Source: Desulfosporosinus sp.
Lineage (GTDB): Bacteria > Campylobacterota > Campylobacteria > Campylobacterales > Arcobacteraceae
Reading direction: 5' to 3'
Assembly: GCA_020719775.1 (NCBI GenBank)
Contig: DYPS01000012.1
Location: 1-37,924 of the forward strand
DNA length: 37,924 nucleotides
The notes under the pieces are model-generated. The model ran no database searches, was not told the DNA's origin, and worked only from the letters and a program-made list of their open reading frames with translations. The stretch's first letter is position 1. Each line of letters opens with the position of its first letter. The translations under genes and the position numbers were made by a program. Below, one piece after another: positions 14,199 to 26,940 of this stretch.

Positions 14199-15136
14199 TA
14201 TTTTACCTCATCTTTTATATTAAATATTCCTGTACTTAAATATCTTTCTCCACTATCACAAAGTATCGTTACAATTCTTTTGCCTTTATTTTGTGGTTTT
14301 GAGGCTAGCTTTATGGCAGCAGCAACATTTGCTCCACTTGAAATTCCTACCAAAATACCTTCATTTTTCGCAATTCTTATAGTAGTTTCAATCGCTTCAT
14401 CATTTTCAATGGCAATGATTTCATCATAAATAAAAGTATTTAAAGTTTTTGGAATAAATCCAGCACCGATCCCTTGTATTTTATGAGGGGCTGGTTTACC
14501 TCCACCAAGAACATTTGATGCTTGTGGTTCAACTGCTACAATTTGGATCATTGGTATATTTTCTTTGAGTACTTTTCCAACACCACTAATCGTCCCACCA
14601 GTACCAACACCAGCGACAAATATATCAATATTGCTATCCATATCTTTTAATATTTCAAGAGAAGTTGTTCTTTCATGAACAGATGGATTATCTGGATTTG
14701 AAAATTGATCAAGCACGATAGCATTATTAGCCATTTCACATAATTCTTTCGCTTTATTAACAGCACCAGTCATCCCTAAAGATGCTGGTGTTAAAATAAT
14801 ATTTGCTCCGTAAGCTCCAATAAGTTGCCGTCTTTCAAGTGACATAGATTCTGGCATAGTTAAGGTAAGCTTCAATCCAAAACTAGCACAAATTGAAGCA
14901 AGCCCAATTCCTGTATTGCCACTTGTTGGTTCTATGATATGTGTTTCTTGATTTATCCTTCCAGATTTTAAAGCTTGAGCGATCATATTAAGTGCAACTC
15001 TATCTTTTACTGAACTTGATGGATTCATAAATTCACATTTACCATATATTTCTCCGTAAAGTTCTTTGTCTATGTTGTGTAGTCTTACAATTGGTGTGTT
15101 ACCAATAAGTTCACTTACATTATTTGCTATTCTCAT
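14198..15136 (-). CDS. cysK: Cysteine synthase A (O-acetylserine sulfhydrylase)
   Basis: A PLP enzyme of 312 residues that makes L-cysteine from O-acetylserine and sulfide. The PLP lysine lies in SSSVKDR (about residue 42), the substrate loop in [12 protein letters not shown], the phosphate-binding loop in [13 protein letters not shown], and the C-terminal [13 protein letters not shown] is typical. The start overlaps the mutS stop by four bases (ATGA), and the end overlaps the next gene by one base. Fold and length fit CysK; CysM (thiosulfate) is less likely but not excluded. Its place in the same coupled operon as MutS7 is unusual and has no clear metabolic logic. Confidence 0.93.
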
Positions 15137-18090
15137 TTTTCCTCCAAATTTGTGTAGTGCAGTTCCAATCCATTTGATGTGGTTACAAAACCATTTATAT
15201 AAATTTTGCCATCATGTACCAATTTATGATGTTTTTTACATAGTGGTATCAGATTGTACTTATGATTGACATTGACATGCCCAATAAATCCTTTTTCATC
15301 AATTTTTCGTTGCTCTTTAATATGATGTACATCATCCACAGTGGTCCCACAAATAGCACATGAGGTGATATACAATTCTTTATTGTATATACTTGTTTTT
15401 TTAAAAGAAAGCCTCTCCACTGTATCGTAATCATCAGTCAGACCTTTACGTATATCATTAGCTACTTTTAAAAACTCTTTATCCATATGAAGTGATTTTG
15501 CAAATTCTAATCCATACATGCTACTCCCGCTTCCATATGATAGTTTTCTATTAAAGATAAGTTTATCTTCATTTTCATCATAAATTACACTCAAATGCAA
15601 ACAGATAATATTTCGTAAAAGTTCTATCTCTTTGATGGTTGGAAGTTGGTGAAGATGAGTAGCAAAAAGAAATATCGACTTCATTTTAGAAAGTTTTAAA
15701 ATAGCTGATGCCACGATACTAAGTCCACTCATTGTTTCGGTACTATGGCTTATCTCATCTCCTAAAATTAGTGATTTTACCCCTGCTCTGTTAAAAATAT
15801 TTTTAAGCTCAAGCATCTCTACTGCAAAACTAGAAAGTCCTCGTGCGATATTATCAGCCCCACTAATTCTTGTAAAGAGTGAATCAAAAAGCGAGAATCT
15901 CATAGAAGTTGCTGGAACAAAAAAACCACTTTGAGCCAAAATAACACACAGTCCGATGGTTTTCATCAAAGTAGATTTTCCACTACTATTAATGCCATAT
16001 AAAAGAACACCATTCATATGGTTATCTACAATAGTCATTGGTTTAGAATTTGCAATAATAACATTATCTTTGTGCTCTTGTTTTGAAAGGTTGAGATTCC
16101 CTAAAATAATATCATTTGGTATATAAATACCTCTCTCTTCGGCCATCTCCAAAATAGGGTGTCTTCCTCCAATAAGCTCAATAAAATTTTCATTTAAATC
16201 TGTTTTAATAATTTTTGGACAAACATAATTATATTTTTTTGATGTTTTAATATTCGAAATAGTCACATCAATTTCAGCAATAAATGATACAAGTTGAGTG
16301 AGTAAATCACTAAACTTTTTATCATAATATTTTATATACTCATTAAAAACTATTTTATTAAGTTCTATTATTTTTCGTAAATTATGCACATATTTATCTG
16401 AAATAATTGTAGTTAATTTATTAGATATTTTTACATTATTTGTTTGAATTTTAATAGTAAAATCCTTAAATAGATAAAGCTCATCATCGATGATAAGATG
16501 ACTTTTAAGAAAATCCTCTTTTATCATCATATATCTATTTTTGGTTAAATTCAAAAAGAATCCCTCTTTGTCAAGACGATGTATAGATACTTGATTCGTA
16601 TCTTTTGTATCCAAAAGATCTAAAATATGCTCCTGGAAGAGTGAAAGTTTTTTTTCAAGCTGTCTATTTTCCTCTAAAAGTAGATCAATTTTTGTGTCAA
16701 TATTTTCACAAATCATATTTTCATTAATATCTTTGAGCATATATTTTCCAACGATATCGATATGAAAAGTTTTTTTAATATTACTTAGAAAAATATCGAT
16801 CTCTTCACTTCCACATGGTGCCTTCATAAAGTGATAGCTTTCCATAAAGGTAATCACTTCCTTAATACTAAAAAGAGAATCATAAAGATAACTTAATTCA
16901 AATGGATGGATTCTTGAAAGTTTTATTCTTCGTGCTAATCTTTCAATATCATAGATATTTCCCATAGAACCTTCAATAGGCATATGATAATCATATAAAT
17001 CAAGTGACAATTGATATCTTCTTAGTATCTCTTTTTCATCTTTTATTGGATGTGTGAGTCGTTCTTTTAAAAGTCTTTTCCCCATAGCTGTTGCTGTATT
17101 ATTAATAAGATTTGAAAGGCTTAGAGAGTGGTTTAATTCAATTACATTAAGTTGTTCTAAAGGATTATTTCCAAGATAGACAAAATGATTAAGATCTAGC
17201 TTAATAGGTAAAAAAAGTCTTTGAACTATTTTACTATCATGACTTATAACAAAATCTATCAAAATCGCTAAACTCTCACTTGAAAGTGGATACTTCTCCA
17301 TATCCATATGTTCTATCGGGCTTAGAAGTGATTCTATTACAAAGACATTTTTAAAAAGTTCATTTTGGTAACTTATTTTCATTCTACTTGTGTTGACATG
17401 AAATATTTTATGAGAAAGTTCAAGATAGTCCAAAACCTCTTTTTGATTAATCTCCTTATCTAAAAAAGTAACTATCACTTCACTTGTTTTATGTGTATTC
17501 ATATAGTTAAAAACTTCATCTAATGCAAATGAAGTATCTTCGCTTGTTCCAAAAATTTCATTATAAAAACATTTTCCAGTGGTTACATCAATCGTACTGT
17601 ATCCGATTAAATAGTTCTCTTTTACTTTATCGATAACAATTGAAGTAATCGTATTTTCATCTTGATTTATTGTGTAATCAAAATTTGTACCAGGGGAGAT
17701 AATCGCATCGACTATCCTTTTTACTTTAGGGGGAACTCCTATTTGTTTGATAAGAATAACGGTATATTTTTGTTGAGCTATGATACGGCCTAGATGTTTT
17801 TCTAGTGAAATAGAAGGAACTCCAGCCATAATTGGGTTACTTTGAGAGTTCTCAAGAATATTTTTATTTTTTCTTGTAAGCTGAATATTTAAAAGTTCCG
17901 CTATCTCTTTAGCTTTTCCAATTTTATCTTTTTCATTATTGACTTCATAAACTTCAAAGAAAGTTCCCACCTCCATAAGAACTACACTATTCTTCCCATA
18001 TTTTTTTTCAAATAGTGTTTGGAGTTTAAAATAAGCCTCGGTAAGAAGAATCGATTTGTCTTCTAATATAAGAGAAATTTCATCAATCAT
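15133..18090 (-). CDS. MutS7-type mismatch repair ATPase fused to HNH nuclease
   Basis: A 985-residue MutS homologue. The N-terminal mismatch-reading domain has the F-x-E motif in GTFFEVYEV (Phe44, Glu46). Connector, lever and clamp domains follow, and the ATPase has a Walker [10 protein letters not shown] (699-707) and Walker B with Asp778-Glu779 in LILGDEIS. After the ATPase the C-terminus carries an HNH domain: Cys911-x2-Cys914, His922-His923, Asn946, Cys951-x2-His954. This domain order is that of MutS7, described from octocoral mitochondria, giant viruses and Epsilonproteobacteria. The fused nuclease could cut the strand without MutL. The start at 18090 overlaps the upstream stop (TAATG) and follows AGGGAAAG; a GTG at 18114 would add eight residues. 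Confidence 0.92.
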
Positions 18091-18524
18091 TAAAATGGTG
18101 CTTTCCCTGTCCACTCTCGTATCATTTTTCGCTCCTCTTGTGTGAGTTCAGCTTCAGGATGAAAAGAGACATAGCTTTTTAAAGGCATAGCCACAAAAAC
18201 TGCACTATATATTTCACCTATTTTTTTATCTTTTTCTTCAAGAGTGTAACTTTCCCAAATAGAAAAATTAAGCCATTTTTTTCCCAAGTCAACATGTCGG
18301 CTCATAGACCAAGATAATGGAGCAATGTGGCTATACCAAGGCAGCACAGTATTATTCGAGTGGCAATCATAACAACTTCTTTTAAAAATAGTCATTATTT
18401 GAGGAGGTGCTTTTATTTCTTGTGCTAAATCTATTTTTTTTGGTTCATCATAACTTACTGGAATAAGTTGGATTAATAAAAAAAATCCAATTAAATATTT
18501 TAAAATAGTTTTAACAACTATCAT
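18090..18524 (-). CDS. Haem-binding domain protein, membrane anchored
   Basis: A 144-residue protein with an N-terminal signal anchor (YLIGFFLLIQLIPVSYDEP) and a periplasmic single-haem domain. The c-type site is CYDCH in IFKRSCYDCHSNNTVLPWYS, and the downstream pattern HVDLGKKWLNFSIW matches the Haem_bd family. A methionine after the helix (AMPLKSYVSFHPEAEL) could be the sixth ligand. The start overlaps the previous gene's stop by 4 bases (ATGA), and its stop overlaps mutS by one base. Likely role: periplasmic electron transfer or haem-dependent sensing; the partner is unknown. The covalent haem requires cytochrome c maturation genes outside the window. Confidence 0.85.
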   Translation of the reverse strand: MIVVKTILKYLIGFFLLIQLIPVSYDEPKKIDLAQEIKAPPQIMTIFKRSCYDCHSNNTVLPWYSHIAPLSWSMSRHVDLGKKWLNFSIWESYTLEEKDKKIGEIYSAVFVAMPLKSYVSFHPEAELTQEERKMIREWTGKAPF

Positions 18525-19528: not shown

Positions 19529-21871
19529 TCAATCTCGATTGCACATCACTTTATATGGACAAAATTCACATATTTGCTTTTTAGAGCACATTTCAAAATC
19601 AACAATTGTTGTTTGCAAACTTTTTAAAATTTCATCCAATTTTTTCAATTTTTGCTCAAGGACCAGCTCCTCTTTAATTTTTCCATCATTGAGATCATAG
19701 TATCCAACCATAGAGACTCCTAAATGTTTAGTGGCTAAAAAATAAAATTCGAGCTGAAAATCTGTTGTATCCTCATAATTTTTAATACTATCTATTTTTA
19801 AGCTTGTTGATGTTTTATAATCTATTATTGCAAAAGTTCCATTTACTAGCTTATCTATTCTATCAATCTTTCCTTGTAATGTAATATTATTTATTTGAAT
19901 TAAAAATGGCTCTTCCAAAGCATGGATTCTAATACCAGATTGAAATCTTTGTTGTTCATTTTGAAAAAACATCTCTAACTGTTTTTTCCACAATTCAAGC
20001 TCAATAGTTAAATAAGGATTTGTATTTTGATATTTTGACAATTCATTTTTCATCTCTTCAATAGTAAATTTATTATTTTTAAAATTTTTTTCTAAAATAT
20101 TATGAATTATATTTCCAATTTCGTAACCTTTAGGTTTTAAAGCTATTTCATGCTGATTTATTTTTAAAATATATTGAAAATAATATCTCCGTTTGCATTC
20201 CAAAAATATCTTAAGTGATGTTGCTGACCACCTTAAAGTTGATAGATTGATCTCTTTTGTAATCTTTTTTTTATCAATAAAAATCTCTTTCTTTTGCTTT
20301 AATATATCCGTAAAATCTACATCAATAATATTTTGTTTTTCAAAAAGTTCATTTAAGAATCTACTTGCCGTATGCTCTTTATCTGCAACATACGATATAT
20401 GTACTTTTTTTGCATTTTGAAACAATCTTTGATAGTAATATTTTTGTAAATTTTCTCTATCTTCTAATGTTGGAAGTTTTGAATATTTTTTAATACTTGT
20501 TGAAAGATACTTATCCTTGATACTTCTCTTGGGCACTATATTATCATTAAAATCTATTACAATAACTCCTTCATATTCCATAGCTCTTGTTTCCAATATA
20601 CCAACAACAGTAATCTTTCCTCCATTTGTGTCATCCAATACAATTTTTTCTAATTTTTTTAAAAAGATCTCAAATCCATCTTTAAATCTTACATTATCAT
20701 CTATTTCAACAAGAGCTAACATACTCTCAAGTAAAACTTTTATTTCAAAAAACTTTTCCAAAATCTCTTTGTTTTTTTCTTGCTGTAAAATAAAATCCAA
20801 TAATTCAATAAAACATTCTTTATCTATTTTTTTATTCCAAAGTGGCTTAATCTTTTCATCTATATAAACTTCATCAATCAAAAAATATTTGATTTTTTCT
20901 TTATTTTTTGGTTCATCAATATTCAAATAATCTCTAATTGCATGAGCATATTGATAAATATTTAATTGATTAATCTTCATACCCATAGCAAAATTACAAT
21001 ATTTCTCATCATCAAATATTTTTATCCATTGACTAAATTGCTCATCTGGAGTAACCAAAACTATATTTGAAGGATTAATTCCTTCTTTTATCATAGATAC
21101 GATTGAATACTTAATCATCCCCAATTGAAGCAAACGACTACTAACCGGATAAATATTATGCTCTATTGCTTTTGATTCTAATCTATTTTTCTTTATGATA
21201 ACTGCATTTGAAATATCAAGCTCATATTGATAATTAATCTCAAGTTCTAATTTAATTTTAGAGAAGAGTTCTATGTTTTTTTGATTAAACTTATTAATTG
21301 TACAATAGAGTGAAAGTGGTATAATTTTTGCCAATTCCTCTATTAAGTAAAATTCAAATGCTGAAAAATAACCTTCATAATAGAGCTCTATGTTTGAAAA
21401 TACTTCAAGAAAATCTTTATTAATCGAAAAATTTTCAGGAAGTATTATTCTATCAAATGCATTTTTTTCTTCAAGAATTTGTTTGTAGTTATCATATATT
21501 GCTCTTAAGATTCTTAAATGTTCTTCATAAAAACTGTATGAATCATAGATTATAAGATCTTCAATAGTCTTAAATTCGCTATTAAGTTCATTAAAAAATT
21601 TAAAAATATACTCACCTTGAGTATATAACTTAGCAAAATCATCGCTTAAGCCCAATTTCTTAAAATTTAATTTTTTAATAGCTTTTTGTAAATAAATAAT
21701 CCTCAAATCACTATCAACTATTAGCTTATTTTTAGGTGGTATAATGATTCTATTGAATAACTCTCCAATAGTAATCATTTTCGGCAAAAACTGATTACAC
21801 AATTTATTTTGCCTTATGTATTCCCTAATAGATCTATTTGTAGGAAATATCAATAAGCTTCTAGATAGCAT
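19529..21871 (-). CDS. addB: AddB-type nuclease subunit (PD-(D/E)XK, Fe-S)
   Basis: A 780-residue protein resembling AddB of the AddAB helicase-nuclease, which processes double-strand breaks for RecA. The N-terminal part is helicase-like but lacks a Walker A motif (SLLIFPTNRSIREYI), as in Campylobacter and Helicobacter AddB. The RecB-family nuclease is at the C-terminus: His590 in GNIIHNIL, Asp670 in GKIDRID, Asp684-Tyr-Lys686 in AIIDYKTS. An iron-sulfur cluster is expected from Cys559 (FLECKRRYYF) with Cys768, Cys771 and Cys777 near the end. The start overlaps the previous gene's stop by 11 bases. No addA is in the window, so it must be encoded elsewhere. Loss of Walker A fits known epsilonproteobacterial AddB. 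Confidence 0.88.
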   Translation of the reverse strand: MLSRSLLIFPTNRSIREYIRQNKLCNQFLPKMITIGELFNRIIIPPKNKLIVDSDLRIIYLQKAIKKLNFKKLGLSDDFAKLYTQGEYIFKFFNELNSEFKTIEDLIIYDSYSFYEEHLRILRAIYDNYKQILEEKNAFDRIILPENFSINKDFLEVFSNIELYYEGYFSAFEFYLIEELAKIIPLSLYCTINKFNQKNIELFSKIKLELEINYQYELDISNAVIIKKNRLESKAIEHNIYPVSSRLLQLGMIKYSIVSMIKEGINPSNIVLVTPDEQFSQWIKIFDDEKYCNFAMGMKINQLNIYQYAHAIRDYLNIDEPKNKEKIKYFLIDEVYIDEKIKPLWNKKIDKECFIELLDFILQQEKNKEILEKFFEIKVLLESMLALVEIDDNVRFKDGFEIFLKKLEKIVLDDTNGGKITVVGILETRAMEYEGVIVIDFNDNIVPKRSIKDKYLSTSIKKYSKLPTLEDRENLQKYYYQRLFQNAKKVHISYVADKEHTASRFLNELFEKQNIIDVDFTDILKQKKEIFIDKKKITKEINLSTLRWSATSLKIFLECKRRYYFQYILKINQHEIALKPKGYEIGNIIHNILEKNFKNNKFTIEEMKNELSKYQNTNPYLTIELELWKKQLEMFFQNEQQRFQSGIRIHALEEPFLIQINNITLQGKIDRIDKLVNGTFAIIDYKTSTSLKIDSIKNYEDTTDFQLEFYFLATKHLGVSMVGYYDLNDGKIKEELVLEQKLKKLDEILKSLQTTIVDFEMCSKKQICEFCPYKVMCNRD

Positions 21872-22415
21872 TTGTTTTTATATAAAATTGTCCTATCTCT
21901 TTTCCAATCTTGATACTTCCCATAATATTCCAATATGCTTTTTTATTTAACACAACCTTTTTTGTTTCATTGCTATGTTTCATAACAATTTCTTGATTAA
22001 ATTCATGTGTTGATGGCATCGTAAAAAGAATCTTCACATCGATATTTTCAATTATTTTTTTGCTATTTTTATCTTTTACAGTAACTAAAATAGAATTATC
22101 TTGTGTACTAAGTATATTTCTTCTATCTTTTCTTTCTTTAATTACCCTTTGTGATAGATAAATATCCTGATATGATAATTCACTTAATATAAAATCATTT
22201 ATTCTAATCTCTATAATATATTTATCACTAAATCTATCATTATTAACTATAATTTGATTAAAATTTTCATCAACATCGTGGTAATAACTCATAAAAGTAT
22301 TGTCATTGTCTTTTCCAACTCCAGCACCTAATGTCATCATAATAGTCCAAGTGATAAGGGAGATACTAAATAAAAACTTAGCAATAAATATTGTATATAA
22401 TGTTTTTTTACTCAC
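21861..22415 (-). CDS. Membrane-anchored FixH-like protein
   Basis: A 184-residue protein with one N-terminal membrane helix (IFIAKFLFSISLITWTIMMTL) and a beta-rich periplasmic part. The C-terminal segment, with MPSTHEFNQEIVMKH and WNIMGSIKIGKEIGQFYI, follows the pattern of FixH/CcoH-type cbb3 assembly proteins. Similar small membrane proteins follow ccoP in Campylobacter relatives. The start is GTG, overlapping the previous gene's stop by 8 bases. Function in oxidase assembly or copper/haem delivery is inferred from position and weak pattern only. It is separated from the cco operon by a terminator, so it is not in the same transcript from ccoN. Confidence 0.55.
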   Translation of the reverse strand: MSKKTLYTIFIAKFLFSISLITWTIMMTLGAGVGKDNDNTFMSYYHDVDENFNQIIVNNDRFSDKYIIEIRINDFILSELSYQDIYLSQRVIKERKDRRNILSTQDNSILVTVKDKNSKKIIENIDVKILFTMPSTHEFNQEIVMKHSNETKKVVLNKKAYWNIMGSIKIGKEIGQFYIKTNAI

Positions 22416-23100
22416 TTAGATCTTCCTTATTATTTAGTTTTTGTTTTGCTTTAAATTCTTTTTTTATTTTTTTTTCCCTTAATATAATGAAAAAATATAA
22501 AACAATTCCTACAAGAACCATAGTATACATGAATACTTTCCATATTGTACTAGCGATTTTCCCTTCGCTTCCTATACTTGATTCTAATTTTAATCCTTTA
22601 TTTTTAGCCAAAACATCAGCAATTTGAGCATAGCCATTTAATGATGCTGCACTTACTTTTGAATTTAATGTATTTTTATCTTGTGCAGCTAAAAGTGGAA
22701 TAACATACTCATCAAGTATTGAGTCTTTATCAATAACGCTTTTTAAATCATCGCTATAAAGAATATTTGTATACTTTTGATCTAATGCCATTGTTAAGAT
22801 AACATACGATTTAGCTCCATCAGAATCTTTTAGCACAGTTGCTATCAAATCTAATTCCTTCTGTTTCATTTGAACCATTCTATCTTTCAAAGGCAGATCA
22901 GGATCTATTCCATTGTTCCCTTTTATATCAAGATAAACACTAATATTAAGCTTCGCTTTTACTTCATTTCCCATTGTACTAATTTCATCACCTGCTCTTT
23001 GATCAAGTAAGTTTCCTGTATTCAAGATAAAATTCCTTTGATCCGCAGCATTTAGAAATAATATAATCGTAGAAATTAATAGTATAAATCTTAGTTTCAA
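22408..23100 (-). CDS. TPM-domain-like periplasmic protein with C-terminal anchor
   Basis: A 230-residue protein with a signal peptide (MKLRFILLISTIILFLNA) and one transmembrane helix near the C-terminus (TIWKVFMYTMVLVGIVLYFFI) ahead of a basic tail. The periplasmic core (ISTMGNEVKAKLNISVYLD, then ILTMALDQKYTNILYSDDL) looks like a TPM (YgcG-like) domain, whose members are phosphatase-like or assist folding of membrane complexes. The start is TTG preceded by AAGGAT; no better ATG is in frame. It overlaps the FixH-like gene by 8 bases, so the two are probably coupled. It stands downstream of the cco operon beyond its terminator. Role unknown; relation to cbb3 assembly or haem handling is an inference. 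Confidence 0.6.
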   Translation of the reverse strand: MKLRFILLISTIILFLNAADQRNFILNTGNLLDQRAGDEISTMGNEVKAKLNISVYLDIKGNNGIDPDLPLKDRMVQMKQKELDLIATVLKDSDGAKSYVILTMALDQKYTNILYSDDLKSVIDKDSILDEYVIPLLAAQDKNTLNSKVSAASLNGYAQIADVLAKNKGLKLESSIGSEGKIASTIWKVFMYTMVLVGIVLYFFIILREKKIKKEFKAKQKLNNKEDLSE

Positions 23101-23202: not shown

Positions 23203-23232
23203 AAAAAAAGGGTAAGTGAAAATCACCTACCC
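23203..23232 (-). terminator. Intrinsic terminator of the cbb3 operon
   Basis: On the minus strand the RNA forms a 10-bp stem (23223-23232 with 23210-23219, one G-U pair, 3-base loop) followed by seven U residues (23209-23203). It lies 35 bases after the microprotein stop and defines the end of the ccoN-to-microprotein transcript. The mismatch on the plus strand supports use on the minus strand only. Confidence 0.82.
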
Positions 23233-23266
23233 TCTAGCAATTTTGTAAAAATTAATTACTACTTTA

Positions 23267-23359
23267 TTATCCTACAAACACCCTTGTTGAATCAAAAAAT
23301 GATAAATATATTGTTACAACTGCAGAAACTACCAATAACCATGCAATAATTTTATCCAT
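23267..23359 (-). CDS. 30-residue membrane microprotein in the cbb3 operon
   Basis: A short frame on the minus strand, ATG at 23359 and TAA ending at 23267, with the product MDKIIAWLLVVSAVVTIYLS plus 10 more residues ending FVG. A TAAGGA ribosome site lies 7 bases upstream, built from the DUF4006 stop codon; the gap between the two genes is 9 bases. The product is one hydrophobic helix (residues 4-22) with a short polar tail containing a Arg. It is the last gene before the terminator. Tiny single-helix subunits such as CcoM and CcoH-like proteins are known for cbb3 oxidases, and CydX for bd oxidase; this could be an equivalent. I do not recognise the family by name. Confidence 0.75.
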   Translation of the reverse strand: MDKIIAWLLVVSAVVTIYLSFFDSTRVFVG

Positions 23360-23368
23360 AATATATCC

Positions 23369-23599
23369 TTATTTATTTTGCCACATAGTGTGGTTTTCAG
23401 GGCTATTCATTTTAAGTCCATTCAAATCTTGATTGATTGTGTAAAATTTCTCAGCATTTGCTTTTTGAGCACCTATACCAAAAAATGTTAAACCACCTAA
23501 AATACTCAATAATAAAGCTACCGCAATAAAATATCCAATAAGTCCATGAAAAGTAAATAATCCTCTTTCTGATTCGTTCATTTCTTTATTTAATCCCAT
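23369..23599 (-). CDS. DUF4006 family protein of the cbb3 operon
   Basis: A 76-residue membrane protein with one central helix (LIGYFIAVALLLSILGGLTFF) and short polar ends. The RGLFTFHGLIGYFIAV pattern matches DUF4006, found after ccoP in Campylobacterota. Function is unknown; a small cbb3 subunit or assembly factor is likely from its constant place. The ATG is preceded by GGAGGAAAC, embedded in the last codons of ccoP, two bases after its stop. A second ATG seven codons inside is also possible. Confidence 0.8.
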   Translation of the reverse strand: MGLNKEMNESERGLFTFHGLIGYFIAVALLLSILGGLTFFGIGAQKANAEKFYTINQDLNGLKMNSPENHTMWQNK

Positions 23600-23600
23600 C

Positions 23601-24494
23601 TTAGTTTCCTCCTATGCTTCTAATATATTCTGCAACAGCTTTAACTTGAGTTTCAGACAATCTTCCAGCAAAACTTGGCATAGCCCCTATAGAACCTTTT
23701 TTACCATCTTTTAATACCGCAGTGACTAACTCATCATTATAAGACTTAAGACTTGGTGCAACCATAGCTATACCTTCTCCATTTTCACCATGGCAACTAA
23801 CACAAGCAGCAAATGCAGCAGGTTTTTCACCTTTTAATCCTCCAGCAACATAAGTAGCAAGAATTTCAACATCAGCTCCACTTGCCATTCCAGCAGGCAT
23901 TCCAGCAGGAAAAGCAGTTTTATAGTTATTTGCCCCATTATTAATTATATGAGCTACTTGCTCTTTGCTCATTCTAGTTGTAAACCCTTGTGCTTTTCCA
24001 TCTATTCCATCACCATCAATACCATGACAAGGAGCACATTGCACTAAGAATACAGATTCACCCATTGCTCTAAGTCCAGCAGCATCAATATTTTTATTTT
24101 TTTCTTCAAATTTTGCTTGATACTCTAAAGTTTCTTCATTGTATTGCCCAATTTGTGAAAATTGGTTTGTTGGGTATCCCATAAAGAAATACCAAAACAT
24201 CCAGATAATTGAACCAATAAAAATTAATCCCCATCCTGAAGGAATTGGATTTGTATATTCACCGATACCATCCCAATTTTCTTCAACAAGTTCACCACCT
24301 GCTTTATCATTTTTGATTTGATTAACATATTTTAATGCAGTAGCAACTGTAATAGCAACAATCGCAAATCCACCAAGCATAGTTAAATCGTTTATATAAT
24401 CCTCACCAAGACTAAAAGAGTCACCTGCTACGAAGTAAGTTCCTGCCATTAGTGCTACGATAAGGATAATTCCACCTATTACCATAGATTTCAT
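23601..24494 (-). CDS. ccoP: cbb3-type cytochrome oxidase subunit CcoP (dihaem)
   Basis: A 297-residue membrane-anchored dihaem cytochrome c that feeds electrons to CcoO/CcoN. Two helices at the start anchor it (residues 5-24 and 38-55, then 85-105 region), and two haem sites follow: CAPCH and CVSCH. Sixth ligands are probable methionines in AGMPAGMASG and GAMPSFAGRL. AGGAG precedes the ATG. It is directly between ccoQ and DUF4006. This is the usual subunit order for the phylum and the length is normal. Confidence 0.95.
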   Translation of the reverse strand: MKSMVIGGIILIVALMAGTYFVAGDSFSLGEDYINDLTMLGGFAIVAITVATALKYVNQIKNDKAGGELVEENWDGIGEYTNPIPSGWGLIFIGSIIWMFWYFFMGYPTNQFSQIGQYNEETLEYQAKFEEKNKNIDAAGLRAMGESVFLVQCAPCHGIDGDGIDGKAQGFTTRMSKEQVAHIINNGANNYKTAFPAGMPAGMASGADVEILATYVAGGLKGEKPAAFAACVSCHGENGEGIAMVAPSLKSYNDELVTAVLKDGKKGSIGAMPSFAGRLSETQVKAVAEYIRSIGGN

Positions 24495-24522: not shown

Positions 24523-24726
24523 TCACTCTCTATTTGATTCTAATGGTTTAGAATCAATACTATCATTATGAACTAAATCAGAATATTTTTCAAAATCTCT
24601 TTCACCTGTTTTTTGTCGTTTATATATTGAATAAGCATAACTATAAAATACTACAAAGACAAATAAAATAATAAAAAATTTTCCATATCCTTGTATTGTC
24701 AATAATGTTTCTTGATCTAAATTCAT
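24523..24726 (-). CDS. ccoQ: cbb3-type cytochrome oxidase subunit CcoQ
   Basis: A 67-residue small subunit with one helix (FFIILFVFVVFYSYAYSIY) and a charged cytosolic tail. CcoQ stabilises the assembled cbb3 complex. The gene follows ccoO by 10 bases and has a AAAGG site before the ATG. Family assignment comes mostly from size, topology and position between ccoO and ccoP. Confidence 0.88.
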   Translation of the reverse strand: MNLDQETLLTIQGYGKFFIILFVFVVFYSYAYSIYKRQKTGERDFEKYSDLVHNDSIDSKPLESNRE

Positions 24727-24736
24727 TAAATAACCT

Positions 24737-25402
24737 TTATTTCAAAGAGTTCATATAAGCAATAATTGCAACAATCTCAGGAATCTTACCAGCAGCTACC
24801 GCATCTTTAACATCTTGATCTTTCATATCAGCAGCTATCAATTTAGCTTCTTCCAAAGCACTTGCTTTAGCTTCATCAAGTGTTCCTAATTTTGGCATAC
24901 CCTCTTTATCATAAGGAACACCAAATACATTTTTAACTGTAACAGCCTCCGCATATGCCGTATCTACATCAGCAACATTTGTAAACTGATGAGCATATGA
25001 AGGCATAACAGTGCCTGGAACAACTTCTGAAGGCGCTTTCATATGATTTTCATGCCAATCAGTAGTTCTATAGTTTCCAACTCTCATAAGATCTGGTCCA
25101 GTTCTTTTTGATCCCCACAGGAATGGTCTATCATAAGCATACTCACCACTTAATGAATACATACCATATCTATCAGTTTCAGATTTAAATGGTCTAATTA
25201 ATTGCGAATGACAAGCATTACAACTATCTTTAATATAAACATTTCTTCCAGTAAGTTCTAACATACTATATGGCTTTGTACCAACAGTAGGTTGAGAAGC
25301 TTTTGCAAAATCAGGAATAATCTCAATAAAACCTGCAAATGCAACTGTTAAAAATAACACAACTGCGAAGAAAAACGGTCTTTGTTCTAACCAATGAAAC
25401 AT
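24737..25402 (-). CDS. ccoO: cbb3-type cytochrome oxidase subunit CcoO (monohaem)
   Basis: A 221-residue membrane-anchored cytochrome c. An N-terminal helix (FFFAVVLFLTVAFAGFIEIIP) anchors it; the haem site is CNACH in YIKDSCNACHSQLIRPFK. The downstream stretch KRTGPDLMRVGNYRTTDW and the methionine in PGTVMPSYAHQFTN are typical; the latter would be the sixth ligand. It carries electrons from CcoP to the haem b/copper centre in CcoN. A strong AGGAG ribosome site precedes the ATG. The gene starts 18 bases after ccoN. Confidence 0.95.
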   Translation of the reverse strand: MFHWLEQRPFFFAVVLFLTVAFAGFIEIIPDFAKASQPTVGTKPYSMLELTGRNVYIKDSCNACHSQLIRPFKSETDRYGMYSLSGEYAYDRPFLWGSKRTGPDLMRVGNYRTTDWHENHMKAPSEVVPGTVMPSYAHQFTNVADVDTAYAEAVTVKNVFGVPYDKEGMPKLGTLDEAKASALEEAKLIAADMKDQDVKDAVAAGKIPEIVAIIAYMNSLK

Positions 25403-25420: not shown

Positions 25421-26890
25421 TTAAGCGCCCATAGGCGAAGCATTAGCTGGTTCTTTTGTAAGAACTCTACCAGCTGTAGCAGTTTTGTACATATTATACG
25501 CAAACATAAAGAATCCAACTAAATACAATAATCCACCAACAGCTCTAATTGTATAATAAGGATGTAAAACTTCAACAGTATCAATAAATGAATAAACTAG
25601 TGAACCATATTCGTCATAAGCTCTCCACATCATACCTTGCGTAATACCTGCAATCCACATAGATGTAAAATAAAGTACGATAGCAACAGTTTGAATCCAG
25701 AATTGTGTTTCAAGTAAAGATTTAGAATAAATCTCTCTTCCATACATTCTTGGAGCCATATGCATTAATGCAGCCATAACCATAAATACAACCCATCCTA
25801 GTACGCCATCATGTACATGTCCTGGAATCCAGTCAGTAAAGTGTGCAATAGCATTAACAGATTTGATAGCTTGGATTGGACCTTCTATTGTTGATAACAT
25901 ATAGAATGTAGAAGCCATAACCATAAATTTAATTAATGGATTTGATTGTAATTGTCCCCACTCCCCTTTCATAGTTAAAAGCATATTAATTGCAGATCCC
26001 CATGATGGTAAAATTAAAACAACTGACATAACAGAACCCATAGTTTGCATCCAATCTGGAACAGTACTATAAACAAGGTGATGCCCACCAGCCCATAAAT
26101 AAACAAACATTAATCCCCAGAAAGCTAACATAGACAATTTATAACTAAATATATTTTGTCCTGATTCTTTTGGTAGGAAATAATAAATAATAGCGATAAT
26201 TGGAGTAGTAAATACGAATGCAACTGCATTATGACCATACCACCATTGAACTAAAGCATCATTTGTACCAGCATACATAGAAACTGAGTGCATTATTGAA
26301 CCATATCCACCAGAAGCAAAATATGTTGGAACTTCCATATTGTTAAATAAGTATAACATTGCAACAGCTAAGAATGAAGACATATAATACCAAACTGATA
26401 CATATAATGTTCTTTCTCTCCTAATACCAATCATACCAAACATAGCAACACCCCAAAGAACCCACCATACAACAACCAATAAGTCTAATGGCCACTCTAA
26501 TTCAGCATATTCTTTAGATGTTGTAAATCCAGTTAATAGTGTTACAACTGCTAAAAGTATTGTTAAGAAATAAAGTGCAAAGTGTAACTTAGCAACACCC
26601 ATTAAAAATGGTGATTCTTTCAGTGAAACTTTTAAAACTCTTTGTCCTACATAATACCATGTAGCGAAAATTCCACTTAGTGTAAAACCAAAAGCAACAC
26701 CGTTAGTGTGTAAAGGTCTTAGTCTACTAAATGTACCATACTCTCCAGCTAAATTGTTTAAAGCTGGGAATGCAAGTTGGAATGCAAGTATAACACCAAC
26801 TGTCATACCTATAATTCCAAACAGAATTGTGGCAAAAGTAAAAGCTTTTGCAATCGAGTAGTCATACTCAATTTGTGCACCGTTTTGCAT
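25421..26890 (-). CDS. ccoN: cbb3-type cytochrome oxidase catalytic subunit CcoN
   Basis: A 489-residue haem-copper oxidase subunit I of the C family with twelve helices. Visible ligand motifs: the low-spin haem His in PLHTNGVAF, the CuB motif WWYGHNAVAF, GGHHLVYS (two CuB histidines), and the helix with HFTDWIPGHVHDG, which holds the high-spin haem and low-spin ligands. It reduces oxygen to water at low oxygen tension and pumps protons. The ATG at 26890 is set by a strong AGGAGG 6 bases upstream; the longer frame from 26920 adds ten residues across this site. It is the first gene of ccoNOQP. Confidence 0.96.
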   Translation of the reverse strand: MQNGAQIEYDYSIAKAFTFATILFGIIGMTVGVILAFQLAFPALNNLAGEYGTFSRLRPLHTNGVAFGFTLSGIFATWYYVGQRVLKVSLKESPFLMGVAKLHFALYFLTILLAVVTLLTGFTTSKEYAELEWPLDLLVVVWWVLWGVAMFGMIGIRRERTLYVSVWYYMSSFLAVAMLYLFNNMEVPTYFASGGYGSIMHSVSMYAGTNDALVQWWYGHNAVAFVFTTPIIAIIYYFLPKESGQNIFSYKLSMLAFWGLMFVYLWAGGHHLVYSTVPDWMQTMGSVMSVVLILPSWGSAINMLLTMKGEWGQLQSNPLIKFMVMASTFYMLSTIEGPIQAIKSVNAIAHFTDWIPGHVHDGVLGWVVFMVMAALMHMAPRMYGREIYSKSLLETQFWIQTVAIVLYFTSMWIAGITQGMMWRAYDEYGSLVYSFIDTVEVLHPYYTIRAVGGLLYLVGFFMFAYNMYKTATAGRVLTKEPANASPMGA

Positions 26891-26940
26891 CAATATCCTC
26901 CTAAAATAAAATAAAGCCACAATAATATGAAATACAACCG

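Follow-up and report, generated by a model that had tools for sequence, protein, structure and literature searches.

Does a frame of 31 codons, placed directly behind the DUF4006 gene of a cbb3 oxidase cluster, encode a protein, and if it does, what might that protein contribute to the oxidase? We addressed this question in a window of 37,924 nt (the whole stretch of DNA that was analysed, from contig DYPS01000012.1), where a first-pass annotation had described an overlooked gene for a membrane microprotein. The features discussed below are collected in Table 1.

Table 1. Positions of the cbb3 cluster genes and associated signals in the window.
Feature	Position	Strand	Description
ccoN	25421..26920	(-)	TIGR00780 above cut-off
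ccoO	24737..25402	(-)	TIGR00781 above cut-off
ccoQ	24523..24726	(-)	FixQ PF05545 above cut-off; TIGR02736 just below cut-off
ccoP	23601..24494	(-)	FixP_N, Cytochrome_CBB3
ccoX	23369..23599	(-)	DUF4006, PF13179; Pfam E 1.8e-24
ccoY ribosome-binding site	23366..23370	(-)	AAGGA, read from sequence; 6 nt 5' of ATG
ccoY	23267..23359	(-)	homologue of CcoY (Cj1485) from C. jejuni; membrane protein of 30 aa with one helix
Stem-loop and U-run	23207..23235	(-)	13 pairs; candidate partial terminator or mRNA stabiliser
ccoZ homologue	22408..23100	(-)	TPM domain and C-terminal helix; TTG start
Probable ccoH homologue	21861..22415	(-)	position and weak similarity to Cj1483

A short gene conserved behind ccoX

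The ATG-to-TAA frame was present as described, and its product is MDKIIAWLLVVSAVVTIYLSFFDSTRVFVG. The ribosome site was likewise found, as an AAGGA that overlaps the stop codon of ccoX (the DUF4006 gene), with purine-rich sites of a similar kind 5' of most ccoY homologues, and the nine-base gap reported between the two genes was borne out by measurement. AlphaFold2, supplied with 47 homologues, folded the product into one helix over residues 2-22 (mean pLDDT 85.9), in keeping with the single hydrophobic helix originally proposed. The suggestion that its size falls below usual gene-calling limits is doubtful, because 93 nt lies at, not under, a common 90-nt cut-off and because the homologue in Campylobacter jejuni carries an annotation. 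A search of Pfam and NCBIfam returned no model for the frame; a weak match to DUF986 (E 0.057) fell below the cut-off, no family match was obtained with PADLOC and no match in a plasmid comparison, and promoter-like matches in the region did not exceed those in shuffles.

Dozens of equally short open frames occur in the window, so that length alone is no evidence of a gene, and the idea that this one arose by chance takes its force from them; conservation, synteny and selection rule that idea out, and we give it practically no credence. Almost every relative in the initial set has an ORF of 29-37 aa 3' of DUF4006, usually with [FY][VI]G at its end. From 47 such ORFs, with Campylobacter left out, we built a profile, which matched immediately 3' of ccoX at every one of 110 loci (whole genomes supplied 30 of them and named genome contigs the other 80, with some overlap with the training genomes). 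Across the phylum, the profile matched in 270 of 397 genomes and DUF4006 in 381. A further 30 genomes with DUF4006, chosen mainly because they had no profile match, all carried a hydrophobic single-helix ORF of 29-41 aa in the ccoY slot, nearly always with a sequence resembling a ribosome site; Helicobacter-like genomes were among these 30. Of the 16 genomes in which DUF4006 was not matched, 14 had no ccoN match either; the remaining pair, G268 and G414, have contigs that stop 1.8 kb past ccoN or within it, short of where the gene would be expected. Two genomes with two ccoN copies had two ccoY copies, the second divergent.

Selection was assessed among eight congeners, where pooled dN/dS was 0.12 in the ccoY frame and 0.78 and 1.52 in the two alternative ones. 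Column shuffling, repeated 300 times, never gave a value as low, and differences at codon positions 1, 2 and 3 numbered 92, 51 and 307. A conserved frame in relatives and a bias toward synonymous substitution were the two checks proposed in the first-pass annotation, and both came out in favour of a gene. The ORF is a real gene under purifying selection and tightly linked to ccoX, and it occurs wherever ccoX and the cbb3 oxidase occur.

The family also has divergent members. At loci L205 and L206, from genomes with two cbb3 loci, the second locus bears a diverged ccoY of the form MYYTIWFLL...ARVFVG. At L174-L202, a Helicobacter-like ORF of 33-41 aa, with a consensus around LEKIL...FIPN, follows DUF4006. 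These Helicobacter-like forms are a divergent group that the main profile mostly misses; an hhalign probability of 90.7% against that profile is suggestive of homology with CcoY but, for a helix of such small size, falls short of proof.

Identity with CcoY and place in the cluster

In C. jejuni, ccoP is followed by cj1486c (ccoX, DUF4006), cj1485c (ccoY), cj1484c (ccoZ) and cj1483c (ccoH) (PMC8267372). The gene of interest here is cj1485c, which encodes 33 aa with one helix and was named ccoY in 2021, when its deletion was found to lower, without abolishing, the activity of the cbb3 oxidase, the high-affinity enzyme with which the bacterium consumes oxygen (PMC8267372). The description of the window's gene as overlooked therefore does not hold. 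To place the published work on our sequences we used its primers, which matched nothing in the first Campylobacter-like genus searched and led to C. jejuni in the second: genome G148 was recognised by seven of the eight deletion primers and by further screening primers, all in order (PMC8267372). The ORF in its ccoY slot is MSKALEYLIVIGLVAAAAITAWSVLTVNHLHIG, 33 aa long as published, and is matched at E 2.9e-7 by the profile built without Campylobacter. The window's gene shares with C. jejuni ccoY its position directly 3' of ccoX, its size, its single helix, its profile match and the succession of a ccoZ and a probable ccoH homologue behind it. Unlike the C. jejuni gene, it stands 9 nt past ccoX without overlap, with 166 nt and a hairpin before ccoZ, and its product has the C-terminal tail DSTRVFVG instead of TVNHLHIG.

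The downstream neighbours bear on where the cluster ends. A ccoZ-family HMM trained outside Campylobacter matched Cj1484 at E 3e-48, and the model of the window's ccoZ product (pLDDT 91) has a fold that matches TPM domains, as well as the TPM subunits of mycobacterial bcc:aa3 supercomplexes. The gene after ccoZ is probably ccoH, given its position and a weak, single comparison with Cj1483 (25% identity, E 6e-4). Because a ccoZ homologue and a probable ccoH come next, ccoY is located inside a ccoNOQPXYZH cluster and does not end the operon as had been supposed. Elsewhere in the window, at 15133-18114(-), lies a gene for a 993-aa protein that by eye resembles a MutS-family ATPase of the MutS7/octocoral mtMutS type, with an HNH-like motif at its C-terminus.

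A conserved hairpin between ccoY and ccoZ

The first-pass annotation placed an intrinsic terminator 35 bases downstream of ccoY. A hairpin with a U-run is indeed present, beginning 31 nt past the stop codon, and is considerably more stable than shuffled sequence (-17.6 kcal/mol, z -4.9). Stem-loops 20-60 nt past the ccoY stop recur across the phylum, including at the ccoZ start in L007-L202. Since ccoZ starts at the ccoY stop in most loci, the hairpin there falls within its first, signal-peptide codons; within the genus of the window, the usual distance to the ccoZ start is at least 100 nt and the hairpin sits in the spacer.

The structure was compared at each locus with 40 synonymous recodings that kept the protein and used ccoZ's own codons. 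At 118 of 136 loci no recoding was as stable as the observed hairpin (mean z -4.4), a count of related loci that are not independent. In a 45-locus subset, none of 20 recodings was as stable at the ccoZ start in 40 loci, against 0-3 loci in the control regions (ccoZ 75-150, ccoZ 150-225, the ccoX start and ccoY). The last 75 nt of ccoX showed a weaker local excess of RNA structure (10 of 45 loci by the same measure). RNAalifold, applied to 23 sequences, found compensatory changes at seven of ten pairs. Many stems are followed by a U-run (86 of 156 among those below -8 kcal/mol), the Sulfurimonas-like GAGGGC...GCCCTC stem being an example that has none; Helicobacter-like loci are mixed for the hairpin. 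Rfam gave no match to the hairpin, and scores for the L20 leader, RsaA and STnc390 were far below cut-off.

By analogy with published systems, the hairpin may act as an attenuator or mRNA stabiliser that separates ccoNOQPXY from ccoZH. In Clostridia, internal terminators set operon stoichiometry (PMC9045158), and in Rhodobacterales an HRC-8-4 motif lies between ccoNOQP and ccoGHIS, likewise at a cbb3 locus (PMC8632094). In each case a terminator-like stem-loop stands between the structural and the downstream genes of one cluster; the published examples come from other phyla and are intergenic, whereas the hairpin behind ccoY is mostly within coding sequence. That it is a phylum-wide cis-acting RNA, setting the ratio of ccoNOQPXY to ccoZ and ccoH through partial termination or 3'-end protection, is a proposal on which we consider the case evenly balanced. 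If true, the high-level transcript would end with CcoY, which would be made at the level of a subunit rather than of an assembly factor.

Published mutants and the role of CcoY

The primer positions in G148 call for caution over the published mutants. There, the ccoZ ATG begins one base before the ccoY stop codon, and the downstream-flank primer of the cj1485c deletion starts at the base following that stop, so that the deletion appears also to remove the ccoZ start codon. The activity lost in the cj1485c mutant could accordingly be due to CcoZ, and because the ccoZ start codon was apparently lost with ccoY, this strain gives no clean demonstration of a role for CcoY itself. The downstream primer of the cj1486c deletion starts past the ccoX stop and excludes the ccoY ATG; the ccoX mutant may thus also be devoid of CcoY, and both strains are possibly double mutants. 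The primer sites of the ccoX and ccoY deletions lie at positions 1527-1654 of L168 (reverse strand numbering). A cassette promoter was used to limit polar effects, and translation of ccoZ from an alternative start in the cj1485c mutant is possible; the complementation found in the main text of the article is for ccoNOQP, with none found there for the cj1485c mutant (PMC8267372).

We consider it highly probable that CcoY is an inner-membrane, single-helix protein which packs against the cbb3 oxidase, or against a cytochrome bc-cbb3 supercomplex, and aids its assembly or stability. It is translated within ccoNOQPXYZH from a ribosome site of its own. The protein would most likely span the membrane with the N-terminus on the inner side, so that the conserved [FY][VI]G at its other end reaches the periplasm, and would lie beside CcoX in the complex, helping to assemble or stabilise it. 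The microprotein encoded at this cbb3 locus looks translated and is conserved in Campylobacterota; it is likely to be an accessory subunit or assembly factor, as first suggested. The lowered activity of the cj1485c mutant speaks for this reading. Against it we count that no structure of CcoY exists, that CcoY is missing from the proteins listed for the complex by mass spectrometry, and that the phenotype of the published mutant may be that of CcoZ.

Mass spectrometry of the C. jejuni complex listed nine proteins, including CcoX, CcoZ and CcoH, and CcoY was absent from the list (PMC8267372). That absence, together with the partial activity kept by the cj1485c mutant, could indicate a transient factor that helps CcoX to act on CcoN and CcoO and is missing from the finished complex, a reading we regard as somewhat unlikely; a hydrophobic protein of 33 aa is easily missed in bottom-up proteomics, and tight co-occurrence with the oxidase fits a subunit and a factor alike. 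We find it far harder to credit that ccoY serves as a translated coupler which hands ribosomes on to ccoZ, its peptide being incidental. In most loci the ccoZ start does overlap the ccoY stop or lie less than 20 nt away, but strong purifying selection acts on the amino-acid sequence of CcoY, and the window's genus keeps the gene despite its usually distant ccoZ.

Other small oxidase proteins can be compared with CcoY. CcoM of the Pseudomonas stutzeri cbb3 oxidase is a single helix of 36 aa (PMC10433244), which is described as required for a stable complex and not for activity (PMC8267372). The parallel with CcoM drawn in the first-pass annotation stands as regards a small single-helix protein of a cbb3 oxidase. 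No sequence link appeared in a PDB search with the ccoY profile, where cbb3 chains gave no match at E up to 10; unlike for CcoY, no DUF4006 partner gene is described for CcoM in the cited texts. PDB searches with CcoX and CcoZ profiles yielded nothing relevant. C. jejuni CioY, of 34 aa, bound CioA in co-immunoprecipitation (PMC11955535), and CioY and E. coli CydX resemble CcoY as small helix proteins of terminal oxidases. Their partners are bd-type oxidases encoded at a separate locus, whereas the window's ccoY is encoded with ccoNOQP and not with a bd-type oxidase; the resemblance is functional only.

CcoY is already known in kind, and what is new is its near phylum-wide spread and the conserved hairpin behind its gene. 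In Campylobacterota it accompanies ccoX almost universally, even in Helicobacter-like genomes in which its sequence has drifted out of the profile's range, and annotation and structural work on the cbb3 oxidase should therefore seek it. The sole published ccoY mutant may also be without ccoZ. The conserved hairpin in coding sequence offers a testable account of how the levels of subunits and assembly factors are set.
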